Position numbers and translations under genes: made by a program. The notes beneath the pieces are model-generated. The model saw only the letters and a list, made by a program, of their open reading frames with translations, did not search any database and was not told the DNA's origin. Below are positions 2,156 to 60,730 of a stretch of DNA of 64,000 nt, piece by piece. The stretch is from Citrus sinensis (Eukaryota > Streptophyta > Magnoliopsida > Sapindales > Rutaceae): contig NC_068558.1 of NCBI RefSeq assembly GCF_022201045.2, positions 37,839,501-37,903,500 of the forward strand, in the 5' to 3' direction. The stretch's first letter is position 1. Each line of letters begins with the position of its first letter.

Positions 2156-19950
<17,795 letters not shown>

Positions 19951-22943: not shown

Positions 22944-24513
22944 TAATTTGTGTGAATCTTTTGGTTGGGCTTCTAATGAACATATCTGTAAATTTCAATG
23001 GACTTCAATGCTGGATATACAAATGACTCTAATGTTTTGCCAAAAAGAAAAATGAAAAAAAATGAAAAAAAAAATTGATATACTCAAATATGAACGATGA
23101 ACCTATTCGTTTATTCCATATCAACGTTCAATTTCATATGCGTTATATAAAAATTAAGTATTAGCGTATATCTTAAAATTCATGCTAAGAGGTTCATCAT
23201 CACAAATAATGTCACATATCATGTACCATGTGTATTGAAAATGATAATAATATAATAAGTTATTTTAAAAATTGTGAAAAATCATTGATCACTTGATGAG
23301 CATACCATCTTATTTGAGAAGAACATCTTAGTATATCTAACATTTTGATAAAAGTTTTTCGTTGTTGATTATATACCTAAAATTATTTCCAAAATAAAAA
23401 TATTAAAAATCATAATGAACCATTAACATTTTTCAATCATATTTATTACATCGACACTTTGTTTTTTAATTTTCGATGCTCCCATCTTCCACCCCCGAAA
23501 ATAATTACAAAAAAAATAACAAAATAACAACTTACAAATATTTTAAAGAAGCCCAACTTGTCAATGTGACAGTATCCTTATAATATACCATACTTGTTTT
23601 GAGATAAATGTCTTTTAGTCCCAGAAGATTAAATCGATTAATCATACAATTAGTTACAGTGTTCTTTAAAAATTACCTAAAATTCCATATCCTTTATCTC
23701 TACATTTGATAGTTTACATATTAAAGTCTTAAATTTTAATTATGCCTTATTTTTCATTTATTTGAATTATAGATTATGTCAAACAAAATTTTTATCCAAT
23801 CCTTGGAAAGTTCAATCAAAGTTTTAACAACTACAAAAGTAATGAGCTCTGTGAAAGCTGAGACTTGGTTGAGTCTCGAGTGGTTTTTAGAGAATTTTAT
23901 TTGACGAACTATGTTAGTTCAAATCTTAAAGAAAGTATGAACGTTAAAAATTATTTGGATTTAATCCACACTTTAACGTTTAATATAAAAATAATTTTGA
24001 TAATATTTAAGAATATAAAAATTAACTACAGCAAGACCTCAATGAATTAATAGCACTGGAACAATATACATAAGTTAAACGAATACTAAGTAATCCAATA
24101 ATAATTTAACACGTTTGGCCTCAATTTAAGATTGAAAGAACATTACATAGAGTTGAGATTGAAATTTATCGAGTATTAATTTAGTAATATTTTACTCGAA
24201 AATCATTCACCTATTATTTTCTTGTTTCTTTCCTTCATATATTCAATAGTGGACAAAGTAAGATAGAGAGAGAGAGAGAGAGGATCTTGCCTCACCCACA
24301 TCGAACCAATCAAAATGCTTGCTTGTATTTCTCTTGATGAGCCTACTCGATTCCCCTCCTGACCCCCATCCACAAATACACGCACTCATTAACCCACACC
24401 TTGACATTACACAACGAACAACGCATATCCCCACTCTCTTTTGCCTTCAAGTATTTCATTTCTTCCAAATATAAAAAATAAAAACAAAGAAGTAATAACG
24501 ATAACAAACAATA
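22944..24513. other. Intergenic region upstream of GUN4
   Basis: The RRM gene's 3' UTR runs to about 23050. The rest is AT-rich with no supported gene. A (GA)n run at about 24265-24283 and pyrimidine/CA-rich sequence (24285-24510) immediately precede GUN4 and probably include its core promoter and 5' UTR. The 61-codon frame at 23865 has no recognisable content. Confidence 0.5.
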
Positions 24514-25365
24514 ATGGCCACAAACTCTCTCCAATCCCTCCACCACCATTCCTTCCTCCGGCGCCACCACCCCGACGCCGCTCCGGCAGCCGCTCTCAAA
24601 CCCACCAACCCAAATTCCCTGTCTTTCTCACTGTCTAATAACAACAATACTACTACTACTACAACAACTAGTGCAAATACTATGATCACATTCTCATCAC
24701 TTTCCCCATCTACCACTTCTTCTTCTTCTTCTTCATCACAAACATCTACTACTACTACTACTACAACAACAACAACTTCAGAGCCCATCTCCTTTGACCT
24801 TCTTCACCAACACTTACAAGCCCAAAACTTCCGGCAAGCCGATGAAGAAACCCGCCGCCTGCTCATTGCCCTCGCCGGGGAAGCCTCAGAGAAACGTGGG
24901 TATGTCTTCTTCTCTGAAGTTCAGTTCATTGCAGAAGCCGACTTGAAAGCCATCGACGAGCTCTGGAGACAGTACAGTGACAACAAGTTTGGGTACAGCG
25001 TTCAGAAGAAGATTTGGGAGAAAGTTAACAAAGATTTTACAAATTTTTTCATCAGAGTTGGGTGGATGAAGAAGCTGGACACTGAAATGGAGCAGTACAA
25101 TTACAGGGCTTTTCCTACTGAGTTTATTTGGGAGAACGGGAAGGAAACTCCCGTGGGGCATTTGCCATTAACAAATGCTTTGAGAGGGACACAGTTGCTT
25201 GCTAGTATCTTGAATCATCCTGCTTTTGAAGGCATGCAAGATGATGATGATGATGATAATAAGCAAGAAGAAGAAGTAAGTAAATTTGGTGGTGGTGGTG
25301 ATAATGGAGTTCTGAAGACAAAGCCATTGAGCAAGAGTGTGTTGAAGACAGATTACAGCTTTTAG
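24514..25365 (+). CDS. GUN4: GUN4, chloroplast tetrapyrrole-binding protein, 283 aa
   Basis: Binds protoporphyrin IX and Mg-protoporphyrin IX, stimulates magnesium chelatase and takes part in plastid-to-nucleus signalling. Single exon, as is usual. Residues 1 to about 90 form a Ser/Thr-rich plastid transit region. The GUN4 domain covers about 92-235, with FRQADEETRRLL, the LWRQYSDNKFGYSVQKKIW core and FPTEFIWENGKETPVGHLP. The C-terminal tail has six consecutive Asp and a Gly run, then ends SVLKTDYSF. Three trinucleotide tracts (Thr and Ser runs in the transit region, Asp run in the tail) are likely length-polymorphic. The start fits because the transit region begins directly at MATNSLQSLHHHS and no earlier in-frame Met is needed. 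Confidence 0.95.
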   Translation: MATNSLQSLHHHSFLRRHHPDAAPAAALKPTNPNSLSFSLSNNNNTTTTTTTSANTMITFSSLSPSTTSSSSSSSQTSTTTTTTTTTTSEPISFDLLHQHLQAQNFRQADEETRRLLIALAGEASEKRGYVFFSEVQFIAEADLKAIDELWRQYSDNKFGYSVQKKIWEKVNKDFTNFFIRVGWMKKLDTEMEQYNYRAFPTEFIWENGKETPVGHLPLTNALRGTQLLASILNHPAFEGMQDDDDDDNKQEEEVSKFGGGGDNGVLKTKPLSKSVLKTDYSF

Positions 25366-32861: not shown

Positions 32862-35800
32862 TTATGCACAGGGGCAAAGTCTCCTGGTATGCCGATGAGA
32901 ACCATCACAAGAGAGCATTGATTGTATTCGCGTGTACAAGCATGCTGTGGGATTCTGAGAAACACAAAAGCAAATATTTAAAAATCAAGTTTAGTTCTAC
33001 AACTCATTGATATAATTATCACTAATGGGCATAACCTTATTTCCTAATCACTAGTTTTGGAGTCCAACACTGTTTTATCTAGTTGGGGGTTGTTCCATGA
33101 AATCAACAGCAGTATTTTTACAATACCAGACATGAGAAAGAAGTTTGCGAGCTCAGTGGAATGAGTGCATTACTTGGAAATATATTTGGATGAAATATAT
33201 CATACAAAAATCTGCATTAACATATATGAAAGCAGGATGTTTTGATTTGTGGTAAGAAGCAGATGCAAAAGTTCTAGACCTTGAAAGGGGGAAAAAAAAA
33301 GTCCCTCAATTTCTCATTATTACAAATTCCTGTAATGATCAATTTCTGCAAGATTCCAATTCCTGTGGTGTTTCCCAAGGAGCCATTCACCCTTAACACT
33401 CCACTTTCCTCTTAAGATTGTGGAATTTCAAGTTAAATACGTTGTTATCCATCATAATTTTACTCTGTTCATCATAATGGCATTTCCTAATTTATAAATA
33501 GACAGTGTATTGTCTCCAAAAATCTCTAAGGCTCTAAGCTCAGTTACATGAAGCATCAAAGAGAACAAGCATCAAGAAAAATTGGAAATGCTTTTTGGAG
33601 GAAGAGGTAATTACGAGATCAGAAAATTAGATGCAGATTGTGGTTGTATAAGTGGTCCAAATATCTTAGAACAGAAACAAGGTGAGACTCATTGTGAAAT
33701 CATGGTCCATAATTTTCTTGTAAACACAATACAAGATCTTGATGCAAAAGAGTAAATATACCAAATTGCTGGGAGCATCATCAGCAACTTCAGCAGGTTG
33801 ATCTGCTCCCATGCTTGCCAGACATCCTCTTTTACAGCTCATATACTTTTGAATACTATTCGAGAAAAAAGCAAGAAAAAGAATAATCAATAAGAGGAGT
33901 CAGATCCAAACAAGAAATACTACATTACCACTAAAAGATTTTAAAAAAATAAATAAATAATAAATTTCTAAATAAATTCAATGAAGCCATAATTGCATTA
34001 TATTCTAACCCATGCAGTGTATTTTTTAATCAGATAATTAACGGGTTATCAACTAAACAAAACTAATCTCCTGCATCATTAAAATATTCCAAAGCATTTG
34101 ATGAAAAAGCTGCATCCAGAATTGAATCAAAATGAAAAATTGTTGAGACTTCAACACTGCTGGTAATAGGTTAACAAATCCTATATATGATCAAACTTGT
34201 GCAATAATTTAATCCCTTTAGAATGCACCCTTATGGCATTTATCAGACACAAGTAAAATACAACCAATTCTACCGACATGTCAAATTAGAAAAGTTATTA
34301 GGGGGGAACAAAATGGCCATGTAAAACAAATCTATCAGGACAAAGCTATTCAAATACAATAAATCAACTATTCCAATCATTCATGCTGAACAACCACCCA
34401 AAAAAAATTGTAAAAGAAAATCAATTTTAGAGGGGAGAATAACAAGACAAGAAGAGAACTCACATCTCACATTGATTAAGCAGAATAAGCTTATTTAGTA
34501 CACATGATTGTCCACTTGACTTACAGACTGAATCACAAGACTCGCCTAGCCTATCAACCATGAAAAAGGAAGTTGAAGAGGATTAGTTATGACATATATT
34601 CAAATCAAGAAATAAAAATTATCTGCAAACTGACCCACCTTCCAATAATAACACTAATTCCAGACAGTCTGCCTTCCAGCTGAGTAACGCCAGCCCCTGT
34701 GGAAGTGAACATTCAACCAATACCATTTATTCTTTAAAAAGATAATTAACATGCATTCAAACAGCAGAACTATACAAAATAATGAATCAATTTAAAGACG
34801 CAGTTATGCAAGTAGATAGTTCCACTGAGCTTGGGTTAACAACTTAAAAGATTCTTTTGTGTTAATAATCTATAAACTTCATTCTCATATTTATTTAGTT
34901 AATTACAGCTTAGGTTCAAACTAGTCAATTTTTATGTACAATAATATATCAGGTTATAACTTGATCAAGAGCTTAAGATGATGGGTAAGAGCCCAATAAT
35001 AATACATTTAAGCTCTAATTTACTAACTAGGATACAGAATAACAAAGATTCATACCCAGACTGACCTGAAGCATTTGATGGCATTGAAAAGCAATGATGA
35101 AAATCACTAAGATAAGCATTTTCATGAACCTGAAATATTCAAACTCAGGTTAAACATAAGTATCCAAGCTCATAAGATGCAGTTTGACCAATGACTTCTA
35201 AAGTTTTAGTTCCATTCATTTTGCTAATAATATACTCCACGAAGTTATATTTTCAATGATCATTACGATTTTGGCCACAAGTCATTCCTGAATCCACATA
35301 TTTAAATTATTCGATCAAGAACAGTTCTTTAACACAAAGAAACAGCTTTGCAAAAAATAGTTAGATGCTCTTACCACACTCTCAGAATTATGACGACACC
35401 TCCCAGCACAGAAATCAAAAACACTTCCATATGTTCCTATCAGAATGACATAAAGAACAGATAATGAAAGAACTGCTACAGTGGTGCTGGAAGAGCAACC
35501 CTAGAAGCTAATACCTTCTGAAGAAAATGCAGAATTGTGTAGACCCCAAAGTAAGAATTTACCTGCAGTTGTTGGCTTCGCAATCTTCACGTTCAGTACT
35601 TGTTCTTTTAGAGTCTGTAGGATAGCGCCCAACAATAAGTTACATTTTGCATATTATATGATTGAATATCAGGAAAGTAATAACTAAAATCAATTAAGCA
35701 GTTAAGGAAATACTCTTGCAGGATTAACACAGCATGAAACACAATATTCATATGAGTTGCAGCACTGTGAAAGAAGATTGCATCCCCTGCAAACATATTT

Positions 35801-37755
35801 TTTCGAGGTTATCTTGTATTCATGGTCATGGTAAACGTTTATCTGGCCTGCTTAAGAAAACTCACTGACAAGAGAATTTCTCTCCTTTCTCTGGGCAGCA
35901 TCGGGATTGTGGATCCATTGACACAGCATCACATACATATCCTACAATGTAAATAATAATTATGCAACTAAGGCAATCAAAAGAACCAATGCAATACGGT
36001 AGTCTCGTAAGTGCAACTTCTATGAAAAACTGAAGGGAAAGTGAGAATCCTATGGATAATTGGAATCTGTCGCACCTGTTTTACAGCAATTCAAGGGACT
36101 GGTTTCATAGACATATAATGAAGCAACAAACTATCCCCTTATAAAAGAATTAGACATTGAATTCACAATCACTTGACAAAAGATCCTCTCAAATCATAAA
36201 TATTACAATTATGAAATTCTTTTAACAGGGTAATTATAGCAATTTATATGGCACTAGTTCCATAGAAATTTCAAACAAATAAATGTTAAGAGACATAAAT
36301 ATGAAATGGAAAAATATAGGCATCTAGAATTATGTAATTCCACTGTTTTGTTGAACTAAACACCGGCATGACTGCAGTGCAATAAGTGTAATATTGTGAG
36401 GTACAATATTTTAACCTGGAAAAGAAACCCTATGAAGCAGCAGTCTACTCACATGTCTACGCATATTACAGTGAAATTCCTAGGATATTAGTTACATGAA
36501 AGGATGTGCATCAATAGTGACCATGAACTACAGACGATTATTTAGTCAAAAGGCTAAAAGCAACCAAACACTAAAAACGTGAAAAGAAATAAAGTAAACG
36601 TAGATTCATTTTCCCTCTTCAATTCAAAACCGTTCTTCCAGTGTCCGGAATTTTGCCAGCATAACCAACTCAGGTTCACCTATGATAGCATAATGGCACT
36701 GAGATTTCACTCAACAACTACTATATCCACAAATCATAAATAAAAATTACGTTCCATGAAAGAAAATCATTAAAGCAAGACAAGGGTACACAAGAAGCAC
36801 GTGAAAGATTAACCAAGGAAACCAAAAACCATATAAAACTCACAACTCTACATTAAATACTGCACTCACAAACGAAAAGATATTTCCATAGGATACAAGC
36901 TGAAACCAAAAACCGTATAAATCTCACAACTCTATACTTAAATACTGCAGTCACGAAACAAAAGATATTTTCCATAGGATACAAGCTGACTGTAGAATGT
37001 CATCAACGCACAAAATATTAGACAGTTGGATTAAAGACTCATTAAGTGAAGGATACAAATAAGGAAAAGGAAAACACTAACCGTTATCATCGGATAATAA
37101 ATATCTTCCTTGGACTGTAGTTTTACAGAAAGGTGTTTCTTGAAAGCCAATATCTTTCCTATATAATGCAAAAATAGAGAAAAAGCACAAAATAATAAAT
37201 AAACAGATAAATAAATGGGTTCCATATACCCCAAACAAAAAAAAAAAAGAATTACAAATAGGGATATGAAAACATAAAGGATAGTCAATAGCAGATTACA
37301 TAACAGGATATTACTTTGCTATCAATTTGCACAATTATCCAACAATAAAAACGATTACAAGATTTAAAACGTTTAAATTCTGAAGTATCAAGTTAATGTA
37401 AAATCCAGTGATTTAATTGAATATACTAATTTCGTCATCTTTACTCTTAAGTTACAGTAACATGTAAAATGAATTTGAAATCTTTTAATAAATGAACAAA
37501 ACATATTTTTTATATATAAAATGGTAAGTAAGCTACCACTTACAATACAAAGACAACCACATTCAAATTTCTAATGCATTAAAATCAAATTATTAACTTC
37601 GAAATGGAGCTAAATATTTGGTGCATTAATGAAATTAAGGATTAGAATCATAAGCATAAAGATCAAAATTACCTGATGGCTGATATTATTGATAGAAACT
37701 GGAGGGTGAGTAATTGAAAGAATAAAAATAATAAATTTAACCTAGATTTCGGCAT
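32862..37755 (-). CDS. SPRING/C12orf49-like cysteine-rich protein with MGAT5-like C-terminal domain, 272 aa
   Basis: Eleven exons, all in frame: 37755-37673, 37158-37082, 35941-35866, 35786-35714, 35614-35563, 35436-35375, 35129-35066, 34696-34639, 34550-34464, 33855-33762, 32954-32862. Residues 1-26 are a basic-then-hydrophobic signal or anchor (MPKSRLNLLFLFFQLL). About 35-165 match the SPRING (SREBP-regulating gene, DUF2054) pattern: CKTTVQGRYLLSDDNGYVCD, paired Cys CCPEKG, NSYEYCVSCC, CAGRCRHNSESVVHENAY. About 183-272 form a second Cys-rich domain, GESCDSVCKSSGQSC to the end SCDGSHRHTRRLCPCA. This resembles the C-terminal region of animal MGAT5 (pattern C..C..C...RRLCPC). No MGAT5 glycosyltransferase domain is present. 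Predicted location is the ER/Golgi lumen. A donor after the stop suggests a 3' UTR intron. The role in plants is inferred only. Confidence 0.85.
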
Positions 37756-42604: not shown

Positions 42605-45600
42605 TCAAAGAGAACCCCATCCGCCGCCAGCAGGAGTTAAAATCTGAAGAATTTCTCCGGGTTGTACCTGAACTGTGTTCTTACCTCCGAGATAAACTTT
42701 CCGTTTGTCTTTTGTAATAAGATAGTTAGCTCCACGAGCTCCGTCCTTTCCTCCTTTCAATCCTCTCGGTGCATGAACACGTCTCTCGGAAAGAATGCTC
42801 ACCACGACAGGACGCCTGAACTCTATCTCCCTCACAAGCCCATCACCACCTCTATGAAGTCCAGCACCACCACTTTTCTCTCTAAGTCCGAATTTATGCA
42901 AAAAGACCGGATACCTCTGCTCAAATATCTCTGGATCAGTCATGCGAGTGTTGGTCATATGGCATTGAACCCCACTTGTACCATCCCATGTAGGACCAGC
43001 ACCACTTCCACCTCCGATTGTTTCATAGTATCCAAAAGTACTATCTCCAAATGTGAGATTATTCATACAGCCCTGAGAACAAGCACAAGCCTGAAATGCT
43101 GTAAGCACTACATCAGTTATTCTCTGAGATGTCAGAACGTTACCACCTACTACAGCAGCCTTTTCACTTGGAGAGAGAAATGAGCCTGGGGGGATGTGGA
43201 TTTTAACAGGCGCCAAGCAACCCTGATTAAGAGGAATTTCGACATCCACTAAACAGCGAAGGCAGTATATGACTGCTGCAGCTGTTACTGCTTCCGGTGC
43301 ATTCCAATTCCCAAGAACTTCTGAGCTGGTTCCACTAAAATCGAAAAATGCTTCCCCTTTATCAGAGTCAATTGTCAGTTTCAAATGAATAACGGATCCA
43401 TCATCCATATAGTCCTCTTCTTCTATTGTTACAAAATTTCTCTCTCCATCCTTGGCAGACTCAGATGATACTTTAGCAGCAACAGACTTCAACATCTCTC
43501 TTACAGCTTCTTCTGCATTAAGCTGCACATAAGTCATGTAAGCCTGAACTGTCTTCAAACCATACTGCTCAATAAGCTCCTTAATGAGGGAAATCCCTCT
43601 CTGATTAGCGGCTACTTGTGCCCGAAGATCTGATAAATTATCTTGAAGCCGGCGTGTCCCTGGAATTTTATGAGCAGAATCTTCAGAACTAGGGTCGAGG
43701 AGAAGCTTGGTAATTCCTTCTTCTTGAAAAATCCCTTTCTCCACAAGCTTAAATGCTTTTATTGCAGCTCCTTCTTCCCATATTGACTTTGAAAATGGAG
43801 GCATACTTCCAGGAGTGATACCCCCTATCTCTGCATGATGCCCTCTACTTGCCACAAAAAATACTAGTTTACCATTATCAAAAACAGGTGTGATAACAGT
43901 TATATCAGGAAGGTGGCTACCCCCAGCACATGGATGATTAGATACCAAGACATCACCCTCATTCAAATTATGCCTCCAGTACTTTAGCTGCCAACGAACA
44001 GTACTGGACATAGCTCCCAAATGTACTGGGACATGGGGGGCATTAGCAACTAGTCCTCCATCAGGACCAAAGAGAGCACATGAGAAATCCAGCCGTTCCT
44101 TGATATTTGTTGATATGGAAGTTCTTTGCAGTGTTCGTCCCATCTGCTCTGCTATACCCATAAACCTGTGATTGAAGATTGACAGCTGCACAACATCTGC
44201 AATGTTTTCTGCTATATTAATGGTGCTTGAAATAGACTCGATTTCAATTTTTATGTTGCCATATTTAGTTATCACGGCTTTGCAGTTAGGTTCTACTATC
44301 ACAGTACTATTCCCATTCATGATGATTGCAGGGCCAGGCATGACATGCCCATACCCAAGATTTTCAAGCTTGTATAGAGGAGCATCATGCCATCCATTAA
44401 AGAAAACCTTGTAGTGGCCTTCAACTTTAGGAGTACCAGAAGTAGGTTCGATGGCCTGTGGCTTCAATATATTTGTAACTCCAATACCACGAACTCTAAC
44501 ATCACATACAACGATATTCCTATTCTGTAGTTTAAATCCATACTCCTGCTGGAACAGCTTTTCGAAATCCACAGCATAGCCACATCCTGAACCATCTTCA
44601 GCAATTTGTTTCTTCACCATGATGGCAGTATCAGTACCTTCATACCTCAAATTCAAATATGTCTCAGTTGTAATGCTTTCCTCTCTGAACCCTTGCTCTT
44701 GCAGCTTCTGCTTTACCTGCTTTGATAGTATGCCTTCTCTACGAGAGACCTCCAAAACAGATTCAGGACCATATACAGCAGAATAGGGTTCCTGTGCCTC
44801 TTCAACAACATCTGCCAATCCCATCCCATATGCACTTAAAATTCCACAAAATCTGTGAATGAGTACTTCTCTCATACCCAATGACCTAGCAATAGCACAA
44901 GCATGTTGAGGCCCAGCACCTCCAAAGCAAGCAAGCGCATGGTTCCTTGTTTCATGGCCCTTCATTTCAGTTAACTGCCGTATTGGACGACACATAGTCT
45001 CATTAGCAACATTGACAAACCCTAGTGCAATGTCTTCCACTGTCATATCCTTTACAGATGGATCCTGGCTCTTTCTGTAGGAATTAATTTCACTTGCTAG
45101 CTTCTGAAATTTTTCTCTGGTTGCATTAATATCTAAAGGCTGGTCTTCATTGGGACCAAAGATGGATGGAAAATAATCAGGAATAACAAAACCTAGAATC
45201 AAGTTTGCATCCGTAACTGCCAAATCCCCTCCTTTCCTGTAACACACAGGACCGGGGTGGGCGCCAACTGATTCCGGTCCCACACGGAAAGCCCCCAATT
45301 GGAACATTAAATTTGATCCCCCACCGGCAGCAACAGTATTTATGTCAAGTTGAGGTGCTTGTATTATGGCACCAGCAATCTGGGTTTCTAAGACTTGTTC
45401 GTAACTCCCAGCATATCGGCTCACATCTGTGGATGTACCACCCATGTCAAAGCCAATGAGGGGCTTCTCTGTTTCAAGCCCAAAAAGAGTCTGTGAGTAA
45501 CCAACAACTCCTCCAGCAGGACCAGACAATACTGCTTTGTGCCCTGAAAATCTACTTTCTGGTGCAAGTCCTCCATCTGATTGCATAAATAATACATTAA

Positions 45601-46399
45601 CCTTTGCTAGCCCTTCATCAAATTTGGACATGAACCCTGATAAGTACTCTTTAATGACAGGGGTCAGGTATGCATCAACACTAGCTGTTAGACCCCGAGG
45701 AACAGCACGAACCATGGGAGTCAAAGCTGAAGATAATGACACATGTCTGAAGCCCAAGCCAAGGGCTAACTTCTCCACAGCCATTTCATGTTGTGGGAAG
45801 GTATAGGAATGCATTAGCACAACAGCCAAACAGCTTATCCCTTTCTCCAACAAACCTTTCAGTAAGGGCTCAAGAGTCTTTTCATTGACCGGCTTCACAA
45901 CCCTAACAAGCTCACCCGATACTCCTTTAACTAATGATTCTTGATTCTCTTTCTCATTTTCAAGAACAAGCTCAACTCTCTCATCAACCTCTATAACCTC
46001 CTCATAAAGATTTGATGGTGTTGATACGGTGAGATCAAATATTTGGGGACGTGCCTGGTTACCAATTTGCAGCAAATCCTTAAAGCCTCGAGTCACACAG
46101 AGAGCAATCCTTTCTCCTTTTCTCTCTAAAAGAGCATTTGTTGCCACAGTTGTACCCATCCTTATCCATTCTATCTTATCGGTGGGGATTTTTGAAGTTC
46201 GTGGAATCTTCTCGCCTGTATATTCTTCAAGAATCCTCCGAATTCCCTCAACTGGCGCATCATCATAGTTTGTTGGATCAACAGACAAAAGTTTCAAAAC
46301 TTGACCTTCAAGCTGACCCGGAATCTCAGCATAAACATCAGTGAACGTGCCCCCTCTGTCAATACAAAACCTGAGCTTCTCTTCTTTTACACTTCCCAT
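42605..46399 (-). CDS. OXP1: 5-oxoprolinase (ATP-hydrolysing), 1264 aa
   Basis: Cytosolic enzyme that opens 5-oxoproline to glutamate using ATP, the main route for recycling glutathione breakdown product in plants. One uninterrupted exon. The HyuA-type N-terminal half begins [18 protein letters not shown], with further signature stretches [50 protein letters not shown] and [20 protein letters not shown]. The HyuB-type C-terminal half begins near residue 770 ([20 protein letters not shown]) and includes [19 protein letters not shown], then ends with [11 protein letters not shown]. Start placed at MGSVKEEK (46399), the usual N-terminus; the frame allows a Met six codons earlier, which is probably 5' UTR. 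Length is as expected for the family. Confidence 0.96.
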
Positions 46400-47080
46400 G
46401 TTACACTCAAACTTCAAAAATCAGAAAATTTCAAAACCTGGAATTCAAGTTAACAGCCAAAAAAAAAAAAAAAGAGAAAAAAAGTTAGTCGATTTTAACA
46501 ACCACGCCAAGCAGACAATTACAAAGCTCTAGCTGCATCCACACAGTTTCAGACTTTGCTTTAATATTGTAGTTCTGAATTCATACAACTAACTTCCATT
46601 TTGCACTCTTGATTGAAATAGCACACCAACTCAGAACCAAGATGATAGAATCTACTTCCAAAAAAAATTAAAATGAAGTCACTCTCATAAATAGCACACA
46701 GATTCAGGCTTTGCTTTAATATTCCAGTTCTGAATTCATTCAACTAACTTCCATTTTGCATTCTTGATTGAAATAGCACACCGACTCAGAACCAAGATGA
46801 TAGAATCTACTTCCACAAAAGATAAAATGACGTCACTCTCATAAATTGCTGCTTAAATCGCTTCAATTAGCAATCTCCCATTTCAATTGATATGGCGGAG
46901 GGAAAAAAAAACAGAACAAAATTGCAAGCTAATAAGACTACAGTTGCAAATGAATAATGAAAATTCTGTAAAAATTTGAATTAGTCACAAAGAAGTGAAG
47001 AATATATGCATATACCTTCAAGTTCCGTTAACCGGCTTCGGAGGAGTGGCCGCCGGCGTCGATCTGTCGTCGCGTAATTT
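46400..47080 (-). promoter_or_regulatory. OXP1 5' UTR with intron and internal duplication
   Basis: A GC-richer stretch at about 47017-47080 ends in TTGAAG/GTATAT (donor at 47015), consistent with a non-coding first exon. The acceptor lies just upstream of the ATG at 46399. The proposed intron holds a direct duplication: 46541-46690 and 46697-46846 are nearly identical units of about 150 bases, period about 156. No gene is present. Confidence 0.6.
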
Positions 47081-48523
47081 TGAGTTGTTAATGACTTCTT
47101 ATATTTGCCTTGTAATTTGGATTAGTGTGGGATACGTGTCCAAATACATAATAATGTCTACAGAATGTTATTTGTATATAAAAAAAAAAATTATAAAAAT
47201 GCAGTTATTTCCAATATATATATGCGTGCGCGCGCGTGTGTGTGTGTGTATAGGCTTGTCCTTGTACGGCGTTAGTGTTAGTGTTTGAGTGGTTAGTCAT
47301 TTTGGTTAAGAATAGTCTAAAGCAAAGTAAGTGGAGTTGGCTCTATGATGGAGTTAGTTTGCAAGAGTTTTATAAGATTAATAATGTTATACTTATTTAA
47401 TTTAAATACTTAGTTTATATCTTAACTTATGTGATAAATAATATGTTATTATCTGATTGGTTCAAGTTATAGATAATTAAATCTTATTATTTTTAATTAA
47501 AATAGTAAATCTCGATTGAAAGTATAATATTACAATTAAAGAAGTAAAATATTGCTCTTATAAGATTTAATGATTGTATGATAATGTATTTATTTTGGTA
47601 GTACAATGTTGTAAAAGCCCGATAACTAAATTGGTTATAGTGGATGTGATCCAACTAAATAATTTATTAGGCAATAGCTCCAAGGTCAAATGTACTATGT
47701 TAATACGATTTTTAGAAATCTTAATTTCTCTAGTTTAAACAAGACCCATGTATTCATTTTATCAATTAAAGAGATAATTGATGTTAGATGTAAAGAATAC
47801 AAAGAGTGTAGAAAAACTACATAATGTTGTAACTTATAACAATTTAATAGTTGTACCAATCAAAACAAGTGTAAATTTAGTCATGTAATAGTTTTGAATT
47901 ATTAAATACATCTCTAACATTATGAAATTTAGCTAAGGTAAACCAAAAAAAAAAATTACTCAAATTAATCTGTAGTTGCACCTACTCGATCGTTTAAAAA
48001 CATCACAAAGATGCTGCAGTTTTGAAATAATTTAAACGTAAATAGGCTAACAAAGTTTTGATGGTTGGTGAAAATCAAGAATTATCAGACTAGAAAGTAA
48101 GAGGTGACGAGTAACGGAGTAAGGATGACGCGTGCCATATCCATTTCGCGGGTGGGGCATTTAGTTCCGATTATGGAAGTGTAATTGGTTGGTGAAAATC
48201 AAGAATTATCAGACTAGAAAGTAAGAGGTGACGAGTAACGGAGTAAGAGGTGACGCGTGCCATATCCATTTCGCGGGTAGGGCATTTAGTTCCATTTAAG
48301 TGCATCAACGGCTGGATGCAACTGTAACATAATTCTACAATTACACCATAACCGGACCCGTAAAATATTTATTTATCCAACATTATGAACACCCTTTGTT
48401 GATAAGTCAAGGCTCGTGACATCTTTTCAACCAGGCGTCGCTTTCTTCAGCATTAATTTCCTCTCATTTCTCTGGAATCTCCTCTGAGAAACAGAAACCA
48501 ACAGCGTATAGATAATTTCTGTA
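47081..48523. promoter_or_regulatory. Upstream region of PRISE copy 1, with tandem duplication
   Basis: Contains a (GT)n/(GC)n tract near 47224-47250. From about 47640 onward it shares sequence with the upstream regions of copies 2 and 3. A direct duplication lies at 48063-48172 and 48187-48296 (units start GGTTGGTGAAAATCAAGAAT and end GCATTTAGTTCC). Copies 2 and 3 carry one version of this unit. It ends 227 bases before the ATG, so it may affect promoter strength. Confidence 0.7.
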
Positions 48524-50072
48524 ATGGAAAAGCAAGATCAGAACCCTAAATATCTCTCCTCCTCAGTTGCCCTAATCGTTGGTGTGACGGGCATTTCAGG
48601 CTTGAGCTTGGCAGAAGCTCTAAAGAACCCAACCTCGCAGGGCATCCCCTGGAAAGTGTACGGCGCCGCCCGCCGGCCTCCGCCTGGCTGGTTCCCGACT
48701 GCTCTCGTCGATCGTTATATAACCTTCGATGCTCTGGACTCCGCTGACACAGCCCTAAAACTCTCTCTGATTTCTCAAGAAATCACTCATCTTTTTTGGG
48801 TCCCTTTGCACGCTCAGGAAAGCGAAGAAGTAAACATATTGAAGAACTCGACGATGTTGAAGAATGTGCTCTCCGCTCTTGTAAATTCGAGCAGCGGACG
48901 TTCTTGTCTCCGACATGTGGCTTTGCTGACGGGGACGAAACACTACATGGGTCCGATATTTGATCCGTCGCTTGCAGGTCGACTTACGCCTTACGACGTT
49001 CCTTTTAAGGAGGACTCGCCCAGACTGCCTTTTCCCAACTTCTACTACGCGTTGGAAGACGTTGCCGCATCGTATTCACCTGCTATAACGTACTCCGTGC
49101 ATCGTTCGTCGGTCATAATCGGTGCATCTCCAAGAAGCCTGTACAATTCGTTGCTCACTTTAGCGGTGTATGCCACCATTTGCAAGTACCAGGGGTTGCC
49201 GTTTCGATACTTTGGTAAGTCCTTAATTATCTCCAGCTTATTTTCTATGTCTAAGTTAATTATAAAATTACTATGGAAAAGTTTGCTGGGTCTTATTAAT
49301 CAAAGACAAAGTTAAAAACTAGTCAACATGTTCGTTCAATGGCAAATTTCAATAATCTATTTGAGATTTTTTCAAATCACAAGCTAGATATAGCTCTATT
49401 ACTTTCTACCGTTTATAGGATATGATAAGTTTTATAAAAGTTAATTTAAGGAGCATATATGAGGAATTTTTATAGATAAGTTTATGATTAATATGAGGAA
49501 TTTTCATAGATAATTTATGGTTAATTATCTTATCAACTCTCCAGCTTAGCAAAATTTTTTTTTCCCTAATCTTCGTCCGAATAGCAATTCTTGAATCTTC
49601 CCTTTCAGGTAACAAATACACATGGGAGCATTTTTTCGACGTGTCAGACAGCCGATTGCTAGCAGAGCAACAGATATGGGCAGCAACGACGGATAAGGCC
49701 AAGAACCAAGCATTTAACTGCACAAACGGCGACGTTTTTATGTGGAAGAGCTTATGGAAACTGTTGTCAGAAATCTTTGACGTTGAGTTTGTGCCGTTTG
49801 ATGATGAGAAAAATGAAAAATTTGATGTGGTTGAGATGATGAAGGAGAAAGGAGAAATATGGGATGAGATAGTTGAGAAACATGAGCTGTATAAGACCAA
49901 ATTGGAGGAGATAACTTGTTTTGAGGCAATGAAACTTGTCTTGCATTTTGAGTTTCAGCATGTCAGTAGCATGAACAAGAGCAGAGAATTTGGGTTCTTT
50001 GGGTTTGTTGATACCATGAAGAGTATTAGAATGTGGGTGGGGAAGTTACGAGAGATGAAGATCATACCATGA
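48524..50072 (+). CDS. PRISE reductase copy 1 (5-beta-reductase/iridoid-synthase-like), 384 aa
   Basis: Short-chain dehydrogenase of the VEP1/PRISE family: NADPH-dependent reduction of activated C=C bonds in enones, including progesterone-type steroids and, in some plants, 8-oxogeranial. Exon 1 48524-49214 and exon 2 49609-50072, joined TTTG/GTAAGT..TTCAG/GTAAC in frame. Rossmann motif VGVTGISGLSLAEAL (about 19-33) and the cofactor-binding YGAARRPPPGW. Catalytic Lys139 lies in TGTKHYMGP and Tyr174/175 in NFYYALEDV. Length matches the family. No signal peptide, so cytosolic. First of an array in the same orientation; substrate unknown. Confidence 0.92.
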
Positions 50073-52360: not shown

Positions 52361-53260
52361 CTATTACTGCTTACGTTAATATAATTAACAAAATCTTGTT
52401 TATATTTGAACTTCTTAAAATTATTGGGTTAAAACAAAAATTCTAAGATATATTGGAACCACGCTTGCTGTCTGGGTAAAGAGAGAATTCAACTTAATTT
52501 TATTCCCCTTACTTTTTGTATGCATAAAATAAACTTGAAGTTTACTTGAATATACCATGAAATTAAGGGAAAGTGGCCCATCGCTCCTCAGATTCTAAGA
52601 CATACCATTTTTAGAAATGCTAGATTCTCTGGTCTTAACAGAACTTGTGTATTCATTCTATTAATTAAAGAGATAGGTGGTGTTAGATAAAAAGAATAAA
52701 AAAGGTTAAGTTACATAATGTTTTAACTTACAAAAATTTAAAGAGTTGCATCAGTTAAGTCAAGTGTAATTTAGTTATTAAATATTTTTTGAATTATTAG
52801 ATACAACTCTTTGATTGTTATAATTAATTACAACATTATGTAATTTAACTAAGGTGCAAAAAAAAAATTAAATAAATTAATTTGTGGTTTTGTCTATCGA
52901 TCGTTTGAAAATATCACAAAGACCCTGCAGTTTTGAAATAAATTAAATGTAAACAGGTTAATAAAATACCACTTGTTAGAAAAAAACAAGAGTTATCCTG
53001 CAAGAAGATAAGCATAAAAAAGGAAAGGTGGCGAGTAATGGAGTAAGGACCATGCACGCATTATCTTTTTAGCTGCTTCGCAATTTAATACGAAATAATA
53101 ATGGTAGTACGTTATTGATTTGTAGATCCCCTCTATGGTTAGGTCAAAGGTCATGACATTTTTTCCACCAGGCCGAGCTTTCTTCAACATTAATTTCCTC
53201 TCATTTCTCTGATATCTCCACTGCGAAGCAGAAATTACCAGCATATGTATAATTTGTGTC

Positions 53261-53943
53261 ATGGAAAAGCAAGATCAAAACCCTAAATCAGTTGCCCTAA
53301 TCATTGGGGTGACTGGCATTTCAGGCTTGAGCTTAGCAGAAGCTCTAAAGAACCCAACCGCGCAGGGCAGCCCCTGGAAAGTGTACGGCGCGGCCCGCCG
53401 GCCTCCGCCTAGCTGGTTCCCGACTGCTCTCGTCGATCGTTATATAACCTTCGATGCTCTGGACTCCGCTGACACAGCCCTAAAACTCTCTCTGATTTCT
53501 CAAGAAATCACTCATCTTTTTTCGGTCCCTTTGCACGCTCAGGAAAGCGAAGAAGTAAACATATTCAAGAACTCGACGATGTTGAAGAATGTGCTCTCCG
53601 TTCTTGTAAGTTCGAACAGCGGACGTTCTTGTCTCTGACATGTGGCTTTGCTGACGGGGACGAAACACTACATGGGTCCGATATTTGATCCGTCGCTTGC
53701 AGGTCAACTTATGCCTTACGCGCGAAGTTCCTTTTAAGGAGGACTCGCCCAGACTGCCTTTCCCCAACTTTTACTACGAATTGGAAGACGTTGCCGCATC
53801 GTATTCGCCAGCTATAACGTACTCCGTGCATCGTTCGTCGGTCATAATCGGTGCATCTCCAAGAAGCGTATACAATTCGTTGCTCACTTTAGCGGTGTAT
53901 GCTACCATTTGCAAGTACCAAGGGTTGCCGTTTCGATACTTTG
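53261..53943 (+). pseudogene. PRISE copy 2, broken, exon 1 only
   Basis: Closely related to exon 1 of copies 1 and 3. Three lesions: codon CGA changed to TGA at 53636-53638; a 4-base insertion CGCG at about 53720 that shifts frame; and no exon 2 anywhere before copy 3. Its intron start (TTTG/GTAAGT, 53943) and following sequence align with the copy-3 intron as far as a truncated TRIM element, after which repeat R follows. The N-terminal 125 codons could still be translated, but without the catalytic Lys and Tyr. Confidence 0.93.
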
Positions 53944-54596
53944 GTAAGTCCTTAATTATCTCCAATTTAATTATAAAATTACTATAAAAAAATTTGTTGG
54001 GTCGTATTAAATATTAATCAAAGATAAAGTTAAAAACCAGTCAACATGCTCGTTCAATGGCAGATTTCACTGATCACTTTGAGATTTATTCAAATTACAA
54101 GCTAGATATAACTCTATTAGTTTCCAACGTTTGTAGGATACGATAAACTTTATAGAAGTTAATTTAAGGAGAATATATGAGGAATTTTTATAGATAAGTT
54201 TATAATTATTTTCAAAATCAAATCTAACATGGTAAAGCTAATTTATTTGTGATCCCTCTTATCCCTTTTCGGTGACAGGCGTGCTTAATTTCTTAAGATT
54301 CCAAGGTTGTACAAAGATTTACCGAAAGACGAAAATTACAGATTTAATTTAAGACATTATTTATACTGTAAAATTCGTTCTTTTACAAATCTTTGTATAA
54401 GGTGTTGGATGTCAGTATTTAAAAAACGTGTAGATCCATGACTGGAAATTTTCATTTGTATGTGTGTAGAACTATCAGTTGCAGCAAAAATAAATAAATA
54501 CATAACAAAAATAATTCACAGGTAAGGGCATTTCCACGAAGTTGAAACTCAAACTGTACTATCTAACTATAATTTAAGACTAGCCGTATTAAAATT

Positions 54597-57256: not shown

Positions 57257-57979
57257 CTCGAATATACCATGAAATTAAGGGATAATGGCCCATCACTCCT
57301 CAAGATTAGTATCATTCTAGAAATCCTAGATTCTCTGGTCTTAACAAAACCCGTGTATTCATGCTATTAATTCAAGAGATAGGTGGTGTTAGATAAAAAG
57401 AACAAAAAAGGTATGGTGAAGTTGCATAGTGTTGTAACTTACAATAACTTAATTGATGCATCAATTAAGTCAAGTGTAATTTAGTTATTAAATATTTTTT
57501 ACATTATTAAATACAACTCTTAGATTGTTATAAATTACAACATTGTGTAATTTAGCTAAGGCATTAAAAAAATTACAAAAATTAATTTGTAGTTCTGTCT
57601 GCTCGATCGTTTGAAAATATCACAAAGACCCTGCAGTTTGAAATAAATTAAATGTAAATGGGTTGACGAAATATCAGTGGTTAGATAAAAACGAGAATTA
57701 TCCGACAAGAAGATAAACATAAATTAAAAAAAAAAAAAACGTTAGGTGGCGACTGGCGAGTAATGGGGTACCATGCATACATTATCTTTTTGCTGTTTCG
57801 CATTTAGTTCGAACTAATAATGGTAGTACATTATTGATTTATAGATACCCTTTATTGTTAAGTCAAAGGTCGTGACATTTTTTCCACTAGGCCGAGCTTT
57901 CTTCAACAGTAATTCCCTCTTGTTTCTCTGATATCTCCACTGAGAAACAGCAATTAACAGCGTATATGTAATTTGTGAC

Positions 57980-60730
57980 ATGGAAAAGCAAGATCAAAAC
58001 CCTAAATCAGTCGCCCTAATCATTGGGGTGACGGGCATTTCAGGCTTGAGCTTAGCGGAAGCTCTAAAGAACCCAACTACCCCTGGCAGCCCCTGGAAAG
58101 TGTACGGCGCCGCCCGCCGGCCTCCGCCCGGCTGGTTCCCGACTGCTCTCGTCGATCGTTATATAACCTTCGATGCCCTAGATCCCACTGACACAGCCCT
58201 AAAACTCTCTCTGATTTCCCAAGAAATCACTAACCTTTTTTGGGTCCCTTTGCAGGTTCAGGAAAGCGAAGAAGTAAACATATTCAAGAACTCGACGATG
58301 TTGAAGAATGTGCTCTCCGTTCTTGTAAGTTCGAACAGCGGACGTTCTCGTCTCCGACATGTGGCTTTGCTGACGGGGACGAAACACTACATGGGTCCGA
58401 TATTTGATCCTTCGCTTGCAGGTCAACTTATGCCTTACGAAGTTCCTTTTAAGGAGGACTCGTCCAGACTGCCTTTCCCCAACTTTTACTACGAATTGGA
58501 AGACGTTTCCGCATCGTATTCGCCGGCTATAACGTACTCCGTGCATCGTTCGTCGGTCATAATCGGTGCATCTCCAAGAAGCCTGTACAATTCGTTGCTC
58601 ACTTTAGCGGTGTATGCTACCATTTGTAAGTACCAAGGGTTGCCGTTTCGATACTTTGGTAAGTCCTTAATTATCTCCAAGTTAATTATAAAGTTACCAT
58701 ACAAAAGTTTGCTGAGTCGTATTAATCGAAGACAAAGTTAAAAACCAGTCAACATGTTCGTTCAGAGGCAAATTTCATTGATCTCTTTGAGATTTATTCA
58801 AATTAAGAGCTAGATATAGCTCTATTAGTTTCGAGCGTTTATAGGATACGATTAACTTTATAGAAGTTAATTCAAGGAGGATATATGAGGAATTTTTATA
58901 GATAAGTTTATGATTATTTTCAAAATCAAATCTGACATGGTAAAGCTAATTTATTTGTGATCCCTCTTATCCCTTTTCGGTGACAGGCGTGCTTAATTTC
59001 TTAAGATTCCAAGGTTGTACACAAGATTTATCGAAAGATGAAAATTATAGATTTAATTTAAGACATTATTTATACACTAAAATTCGTTCTTTTACAAATC
59101 TTTGTATAAGGGGTTGTATGTCTGTATTTAAAAAACGTGTAAATCCATGACTCGAATTTTTCATTTGTATGTGTGTAGAACTATCAGTTGCAGCAAAAAT
59201 AAATAAATATATAACAAAAATAATTCACAGGTAAGGGCATTTCCACGAAGTTGAAACTCAAACTCTACTATCTAACTATAATTTAAGACTAGCCGTATTA
59301 AAATTATGGTACCAACTAGTTGAGTTGGTAAAAGCAAGAGGTTTATAAATCATACTGCACTCACATGAGTGGGACGGGATTGAGTTCTTGTTAAGCTAAA
59401 TAATAAAAGAAGTATTATAATCGCACCACACAATCTAGCTGTGCAAAGTAGTGACACTGAGACTATAACCATGACAGTTTACTGGGGCAATTCGTCGCAC
59501 AGCTGATTTGTTGAGTTGTGTCTCACATTAGTTAGAAAAGGAGAGATACTTGGGTTTATAAGGAGGTAGGTCACTCCACCTAAAAGACTAGTCTTTTTGG
59601 ATTGGATACCTAAAAATCTTATACTAAGTTCCCCTAACAAGTGGTATCAGAGCTAGACTCTACAGTAAGAATGTGGTGGTGGAACAACTCACGTGTGTCA
59701 GACGAAAGGACCGGAGTTTGGCGGTGGTTTCTTCCGAGGGAGGATTGTTGAATTGTGTCCCACATTAGCTAGTAAATGTGAGATACATGGGTTTATAAGG
59801 AGGATATGTCACTCCATCCAATAGACTAGTCTTTTGGGTTGGATACCTAAAAATTTTATGTTAAGTCCCACAACAAGTGGTATCAGGGCTAGATCTTAGT
59901 AGCCGGAATGTGATGGTGGAACAACTCAAATGTGTCAGACAAAAGGTCCGGCAGTGGTTTCGTCTGAAAGGGGATTGTTGAGTTGTGTCAATGTGAGATA
60001 CTTGGGTTTATAAAGAGGTAGATCACTCCACCTAAAAGACTAGTCTTTTGGATTAGATAACTATAAATCTTATGATAAGTCTCCCCAACATGATTCATTT
60101 ACTCAAACACTTGCCTCATAGTATAAAACACAAAGGAAACATTTCTGTTAATTATCCTAACACAAAGGAAACATTTCTGTTAATTATCCTATCAAATCTC
60201 CAGTTCAGCAATTTTTTTTTTCCCTAAACTTCGTCCTAATTGCAATTCTTGAATATTCCCTTTCAGGTAACAAATACACATGGGAGCATTTTTTCGACGT
60301 GTCAGACAGCCGATTGCTAGCAGAGCAACAGATATGGGCAGCAACGACGGATAAGGCCAAGAACCAAGCATTTAACTGCACAAACGGCGACGTTTTTATG
60401 TGGAAGAGCTTATGGAAACTGTTGTCAGAAATCTTTGACATTGAGTTTGTGCCGTTTGATGATGTGAAAAATGAAAAATTTGATGTGGTTGAGATGATGA
60501 AGGAGAAAGGAGAAATATGGGATGAGATAGTTGAGAAACATGGGCTGTATAAGACCAAATTGGAGGAGATAACTTGTTTTGAGGCAATGAAACTTGTCTT
60601 GCATTTTGAGTTTCAGCATGTCAGTAGCATGAACAAGAGCAGAGAATTTGGGTTCTTTGGGTTTGTTGATACCATGAAGAGTATTAGAATGTGGGTCGGC
60701 AAATTGAGAGAGATGAAGATCATACCATGA
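57980..60730 (+). CDS. PRISE reductase copy 3, 380 aa, intact
   Basis: Exon 1 57980-58658 and exon 2 60267-60730, with the same phase and splice bases as copy 1. The only length difference is four missing residues near the N-terminus. Rossmann VGVTGISGLSLAEAL, catalytic Lys in TGTKHYMGP and Tyr in NFYYELEDV are all present. Exon 2 differs from copy 1 by only about three residues, which suggests recent duplication or gene conversion. The 1.6-kb intron is four times longer than that of copy 1 because it carries a SINE-like piece and a TRIM doublet. Upstream sequence resembles copies 1 and 2 but is interrupted by a TIR element at 56343. Confidence 0.93.
59307..59400 (+). mobile_element. SINE-like insertion in PRISE copy 3 intron
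   Basis: Same element as at 54597-54690, in the same intron position, with box A-like TAGTTGAGTTGGTAAAAGC. Shared by copies 2 and 3, absent from copies 1 and 4. Confidence 0.5.
59509..60090 (+). mobile_element. TRIM retrotransposon doublet: three LTRs, two internal regions
   Basis: LTRs at 59509-59639, 59746-59875 and 59976-60090. They begin TGTTGA and end in ACA, and the third has lost about 15 bases near its start. After LTR1 and LTR2 comes AG then the primer-binding site TGGTATCAGAGC (59642) or TGGTATCAGGGC (59878), matching initiator-Met tRNA. Before LTR2 and LTR3 lie purine-rich tracts (GAGGGAGGAT, AAAGGGGAT). The internal regions are only about 100 bases, with no protein. Target duplication TGATT at 59504-59508 and 60091-60095. 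Copy 4 keeps the empty site near 63510. Confidence 0.92.
60127..60190. repeat. 32-bp tandem duplication before PRISE copy 3 exon 2
   Basis: AACACAAAGGAAACATTTCT followed by GTTAATTATCCT occurs twice in a row, about 80 bases upstream of the exon 2 acceptor. Copy 1 has a single version of the TTAATTATC part. Confidence 0.8.

Follow-up and report, generated by a model that had tools for sequence, protein, structure and literature searches.

A predicted SPRING-domain protein of Citrus sinensis with an MGAT5-like tail is a candidate S1P-licensing factor

The window analysed here, a 64-kb stretch of Citrus sinensis DNA, carries on its minus strand (37755..32862) a gene predicted to encode a protein that joins a SPRING (CREST) domain to a cysteine-rich tail resembling the C-terminal part of MGAT5. 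The most likely reading, to which we give somewhat more than even credence, is that this plant counterpart of SPRING serves as an S1P-licensing factor, the SPRING half displacing the pro-domain of S1P. What the sequence demonstrates is the gene model, homology for each of the two halves, the kept contacts and the presence of the partner gene.

The gene was rebuilt independently from the raw sequence. Eleven exons join into 819 nt that end with a TAA stop and encode 272 aa, including 24 cysteines. All ten introns are of the GT-AG type, and the reading frame and phases are consistent across every join. The original prediction of a 272-aa protein from 11 exons is thus borne out by the rebuilt model. 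Exon 1 (37673..37755, minus strand like all the others; aa 1-28) supplies the start codon, a basic n-region and a hydrophobic segment that may be a signal peptide or a signal anchor. Its frame has an in-frame stop upstream, and M1 is the first Met past that stop. The SPRING half corresponds to exons 2-7. Exon 2 (37082..37158, aa 28-54) contains a short linker and the start of the SPRING domain, exon 3 (35866..35941, aa 54-79) includes A59, the equivalent of the human contact R95, and exon 4 (35714..35786, aa 79-103) encodes the domain core with the motif YEYCVSCC. Exon 5 (35563..35614, aa 104-121) aligns with a loop for which human SPRING has no resolved structure. It is followed by exon 6 (35375..35436, aa 121-141), with R135 and V141 as the equivalents of the human contacts R174 and V180, and by exon 7 (35066..35129, aa 142-163), which ends the domain and holds the single N-glycosylation motif (N160). 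The boundary between the two halves, at about aa 163, coincides with an intron. The MGAT5-like tail starts in exon 8 (34639..34696, aa 163-182) and continues through exon 9 (34464..34550, aa 182-211; C187-x3-C191-x6-C198 and C209) and exon 10 (33762..33855, aa 211-242; C218 and C222). Exon 11 (32862..32954, aa 243-272) encodes C247-x10-C258-x10-C269-x-C271, within the ending RRLCPCA, and the stop codon. With 14 cysteines in the SPRING half and ten in the tail, all 24 could pair.

The N-terminus consists of two basic residues followed by one hydrophobic segment at about aa 6-27, and the best 19-residue hydropathy of the protein is 2.11, from aa 9. This segment agrees with secretory targeting, whether the luminal protein stays anchored or is cleaved. 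An S1P-like motif, RTLK (aa 103-106), is formed across the exon 4/5 join (35714 / 35614, minus strand) in the region of the unresolved loop. The stricter motif pattern also found RYLL at 46, and a looser pattern found four motifs. None of seven ER-stress or G-box patterns was found in the 2 kb 5' of the start codon, which counts against the S1P-licensing reading. Rfam and tRNA scans of the whole window found nothing.

The first half of the protein had been likened to SPRING in the original prediction, with residues 35-165 as the relevant part. A profile search agreed with this assignment: residues 37-155 match Pfam PF10218 (SPRING1) with an E-value of 2.9e-36 and 124.9 bits, against a cut-off of 22, and cover positions 4-131 of the 131 in the model. 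The protein also matched PDB chain 8uw8_B (E 4e-17), which is human SPRING (PMC11231238). In a two-sequence alignment, the plant SPRING half and human SPRING are 36% identical. For human residues we used the numbering of the construct described in PMC11231238 (chain position = residue minus 14), under which positions 95, 174 and 180 come out as R, R and V, as named there. A genome-wide search with the SPRING1 model (default limit) returned one match among the three candidates scored, and this match was the present gene. The genome searched comprised 299.7 Mb in 11 contigs and was scored exon by exon, so that a poorly conserved second copy could escape.

Cysteines of the CREST domain are well kept, with 14 of 15 matched in the aligned human stretch (73-195). 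The unmatched human cysteine is C115, aligned with S77, or its neighbour C116, between which the alignment cannot decide. The published account of human SPRING places 15 cysteines within 95 modelled residues (76-138 and 165-196) and predicts seven disulfides (PMC11231238). In our numbering 14 human cysteines lie within these segments and C75 lies just outside, a small mismatch with that account. Since seven disulfides are predicted for a human domain with 15 cysteines, 14 cysteines would suffice. The S1P contacts of human SPRING that were tested by mutation are R95, R174 and V180, of which R174 is the centre of the interface (PMC11231238). Two of the three are kept in the plant protein (R174 as R135 and V180 as V141). 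R95 is replaced by Ala59, and this loss of one of three tested contacts counts against the S1P-licensing reading.

By segment, identity to human SPRING is 24/63 over residues 76-138, 5/26 over the unresolved loop (139-164) and 12/31 over 165-195. The higher identity of the S1P-side segments than of the loop may reflect only the fold. When cysteines are left out, the corresponding values are 14/52, 5/26 and 9/28, and the resolved parts together (23/80) do not differ significantly from the loop (5/26; one-sided Fisher P = 0.25). Because the contrast is largely due to cysteines and is not significant once they are removed, it does not by itself demonstrate selection for S1P contact. For this reason we slightly lowered our confidence in S1P licensing and slightly raised that in a different luminal partner.

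The same genome encodes the putative partner. A search with the S1P-specific Pfam model MBTPS1_3rd gave one match among two candidates scored (E 3.2e-55), and a hand-joined 589-aa piece of the plant S1P matched human S1P with an E-value of 1.1e-252. On the S1P side, the contacts tested by mutation are P317, N328 and W556 (PMC11231238). All three are kept in the plant S1P, as counted by eye in the alignment with the numbering anchored on two residues given in PMC11231238, N338 (oxyanion) and N515 (glycosylated), both at chain position minus 6. Over both partners, five of the six tested contacts are thus kept. Together with the S1P gene itself, they lend indirect support to the plant S1P maturation factor proposed in the original prediction. 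The kept S1P residues are consistent with a conserved SPRING epitope. However, the same epitope also binds the A-domain (pro-domain) of S1P itself (PMC11231238), and its conservation therefore does not need SPRING.

For the second half, the original prediction was a tail of MGAT5 type without a glycosyltransferase domain. Profile, PDB and shuffle tests all bear this out, although the profile scores stay below the Pfam cut-off. The whole protein matched positions 468-557 of the 557 in PF15024 (GT18/MGAT5) with an E-value of 9.5e-5 and 21.6 bits, and the tail alone matched positions 469-557 with an E-value of 8.9e-6 and 25.0 bits, both below the cut-off of 28. The plant residues that match the end of the model are 175-271. 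No GT-B catalytic domain was found in the plant protein, and the PF15024 match is confined to the C-terminal positions of the model. MGAT5 chains in the PDB were matched with E-values of 0.016-0.021 by the whole protein and 0.0037-0.0043 by the tail alone. The tail and an MGAT5 fragment gave a Smith-Waterman score of 96 (BLOSUM62 local alignment), attained by none of 5000 shuffled tails (mean 26.9, sd 4.7, maximum 56). The pattern C-x3-C-x6-C followed by C-x10-C-x10-C-x-C occurred in only 4 of 500000 shuffles. In the printed MGAT5 fragment, all eight cysteines meet plant cysteines, with spacings of 4 and 7 towards one end of the fragment and of 11, 11 and 2 towards the other. These shuffle tests support homology between the tail and MGAT5. 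The SPRING half also showed a weak similarity to the MGAT5 fragment (36 of 2000 shuffles attained the score), on which we do not rely.

We take the disulfides of the MGAT5 C-terminal domain to be 649-724, 653-726, 660-713, 681-702 and 737-740. If these pairs hold, the tail would keep C187-C269, C191-C271, C198-C258 and C218-C247, and the fifth would be missing, since the tail ends at CPCA. C209 and C222 could possibly replace the missing disulfide. In GnT-V, the C-terminal domain spans G628-L741, holds five of the eight disulfides and sits outside the GT-B fold (PMC6107550). The plant tail may be an accessory luminal module for Golgi retention, oligomerisation or client docking. When the last tail exon was searched in its own genome by exon-by-exon scoring, the only match was this gene. 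The full GT18 profile gave no match in this genome, yet it also gave none in any of 14 control genomes, and exons were scored singly, so that a true MGAT5 in this genome could escape.

Other origins and relatives were also considered. An internal duplication was rejected, as 499 of 2000 shuffles attained the score of the tail against its own SPRING half and 731 of 2000 its score against human SPRING. Relatives in the viral and prokaryotic collections were rejected as well. A peptide-pattern scan of viral contigs gave two stretches, neither of which was related. The degenerate pattern YEYCVxCC occurred in one viral and nine prokaryotic contigs. The best tblastn E-value of the model against these was 0.68, two of the ten had no tblastn hit at all, and the motif lay in stretches with nearby stops; this prokaryote search covered exact matches to one pattern and could miss divergent relatives. 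Profiles built from two sequences retrieved from the PDB their own members and two phage proteins, one of them an anti-CRISPR, with E-values of 0.14-0.15 that we took as chance.

Plant members of PF10218 are very probably already labelled in public databases. Judged by titles and abstract beginnings, our searches of the openly licensed PMC literature turned up neither a study of plant SPRING, under the names SPRING, C12ORF49, DUF2054 and UPF0454, nor a plant partner that frees S1P from its pro-domain. Within the main text of the SPRING papers searched by term, the word "plant" does not occur.

The pathway that the protein would serve is that of bZIP17/28. Plant S1P (SBT6.1) is active early in the Golgi, and its substrates include transcription factors anchored in membranes as well as precursors, among them CLEL6 (PMC7162652). 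Animal SPRING acts as a competitor of the A-domain of S1P and frees the protease, enabling SREBP2 cleavage (PMC11231238); in human cells it resides in the Golgi and has its C-terminus in the lumen (PMC7048761). This animal mechanism, the location of SBT6.1 in the Golgi and the secretory-type N-terminus of the plant protein are among the grounds on which we judge a role in S1P licensing most likely. The plant protein would reside in the lumen of the ER or Golgi, where its SPRING half would dock on SBT6.1 and outcompete the inhibitory pro-domain, which would then be released. The freed S1P would cut its clients, bZIP17/28 and others. The tail encoded by exons 8-11 would act as a separate cysteine-rich module with an accessory luminal role.

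The SPRING fold may instead have been kept for another luminal partner, plant S1P being freed by pH or by self-cleavage as in other subtilases. The replaced R95, the fact that outside the cysteines the S1P-side segments are not significantly more identical than the loop, and the added tail, which suggests an altered role, all speak for such a change of partner, and pro-domain release is known to be pH-dependent in other subtilases (PMC7162652). We nevertheless regard it as rather unlikely, given that R174 and V180 are kept, that S1P is present and that its three tested contacts are all retained. Another proposal makes the tail the main actor: having arisen from the C-terminal domain of MGAT5, it would be a lectin-like or glycosylation-related Golgi cofactor, and the SPRING half only its scaffold. 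The homology and the matching cysteines of the tail agree with this proposal. It is improbable in view of the position of the MGAT5 domain outside the GT-B fold and the absence of a detected catalytic domain from the plant protein; moreover, the passages of PMC6107550 that concern the domain name no glycan-binding role for it.

The two halves might also come from different transcripts, or retention of intron 7 might be the rule and give a SPRING-only protein. The gene model was drawn from genomic sequence alone, and read-through from exon 7 into intron 7 would add about 35 residues before a stop (frame 34965-35138). Against such an artefact stand the GT-AG borders of every intron, a frame kept throughout, the exon 7/8 join included, and the cysteine-rich, luminal character of both modules, and we hold it to be very improbable. 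S1P licensing by a two-module protein is the reading that we prefer among these.

If it is true, SPRING turns from a factor of the cholesterol pathway into a general S1P switch. The SPRING-domain protein is a named and testable candidate for the partner that frees plant S1P, and the tail, as a naturally discrete module, lends itself to deletion. Tentatively, and with somewhat less than even confidence, SPRING may be regarded as an ancestral eukaryotic S1P activator and not as an SREBP regulator. Plants would then have a two-module form of it, with a tail for Golgi retention or client choice, and this protein would be a switch, so far overlooked, that controls the stress and peptide signals depending on S1P in plants.

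Several other genes lie in the window. About 5 kb from the SPRING gene, an unbroken 1271-aa frame (42608-46420, minus strand) with four hydantoinase/oxoprolinase domains is apparently an intron-free 5-oxoprolinase gene. Three tandem reductase copies on the plus strand (48512-49312, 53213-53984 and 57944-58738), closely similar by eye, are presumably PRISE-like (progesterone 5-beta-reductase / iridoid synthase type). The middle copy was read in two ORF pieces, and the Pfam assignment was made on the first copy only (E 7.8e-7). A single open frame at 24505-25362 (plus strand) encodes a GUN4 domain (PF05419, E 3.8e-50) behind a low-complexity N-terminal part rich in Ser, Thr and Asn. Exon pieces at about 7780-16773 (minus strand) seem to resemble the eIF2-alpha kinase GCN2; Pfam scans of two of them, 7780-8136 and 16303-16773, gave no match.

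Compared with animal SPRING (C12ORF49, POST1; PF10218; PDB 8UW8), the plant protein has a near-complete CREST profile, 14 of the 15 cysteines in the compared stretch, the R174 and V180 contacts and a hydrophobic N-terminal segment ahead of the cysteine-rich domain. It differs in having Ala in place of R95 and in adding about 110 residues of MGAT5-like tail. To our knowledge, its plant context is free of SREBP. The N-glycosylation motif is at N160 in the plant protein, whereas it is at N67 in human SPRING (PMC7048761). The human ectodomain starts at residue 36 (PMC11231238), and in the aligned part of human SPRING no cysteine comes before residue 75. About 39 residues thus precede that cysteine in the human ectodomain, whereas only about 11 separate the hydrophobic segment from the first cysteine (C39) in the plant protein, and this short spacer counts against the S1P-licensing reading. 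With the C-terminal domain of MGAT5/GnT-V (GT18, PF15024; 5ZIB, 5ZIC and 6YJQ), the tail shares 32% identity in a two-sequence alignment, the exact spacing of both cysteine patterns and an end in R-x-C-P-C. The last cysteine pair of MGAT5 is presumably missing from the plant tail, which stops just past CPC. The tail, which scores under the curated cut-off of Pfam, has C209 and C222 of its own, and unlike MGAT5 the plant protein joins this module to a SPRING domain rather than to a detected GT-B catalytic domain.
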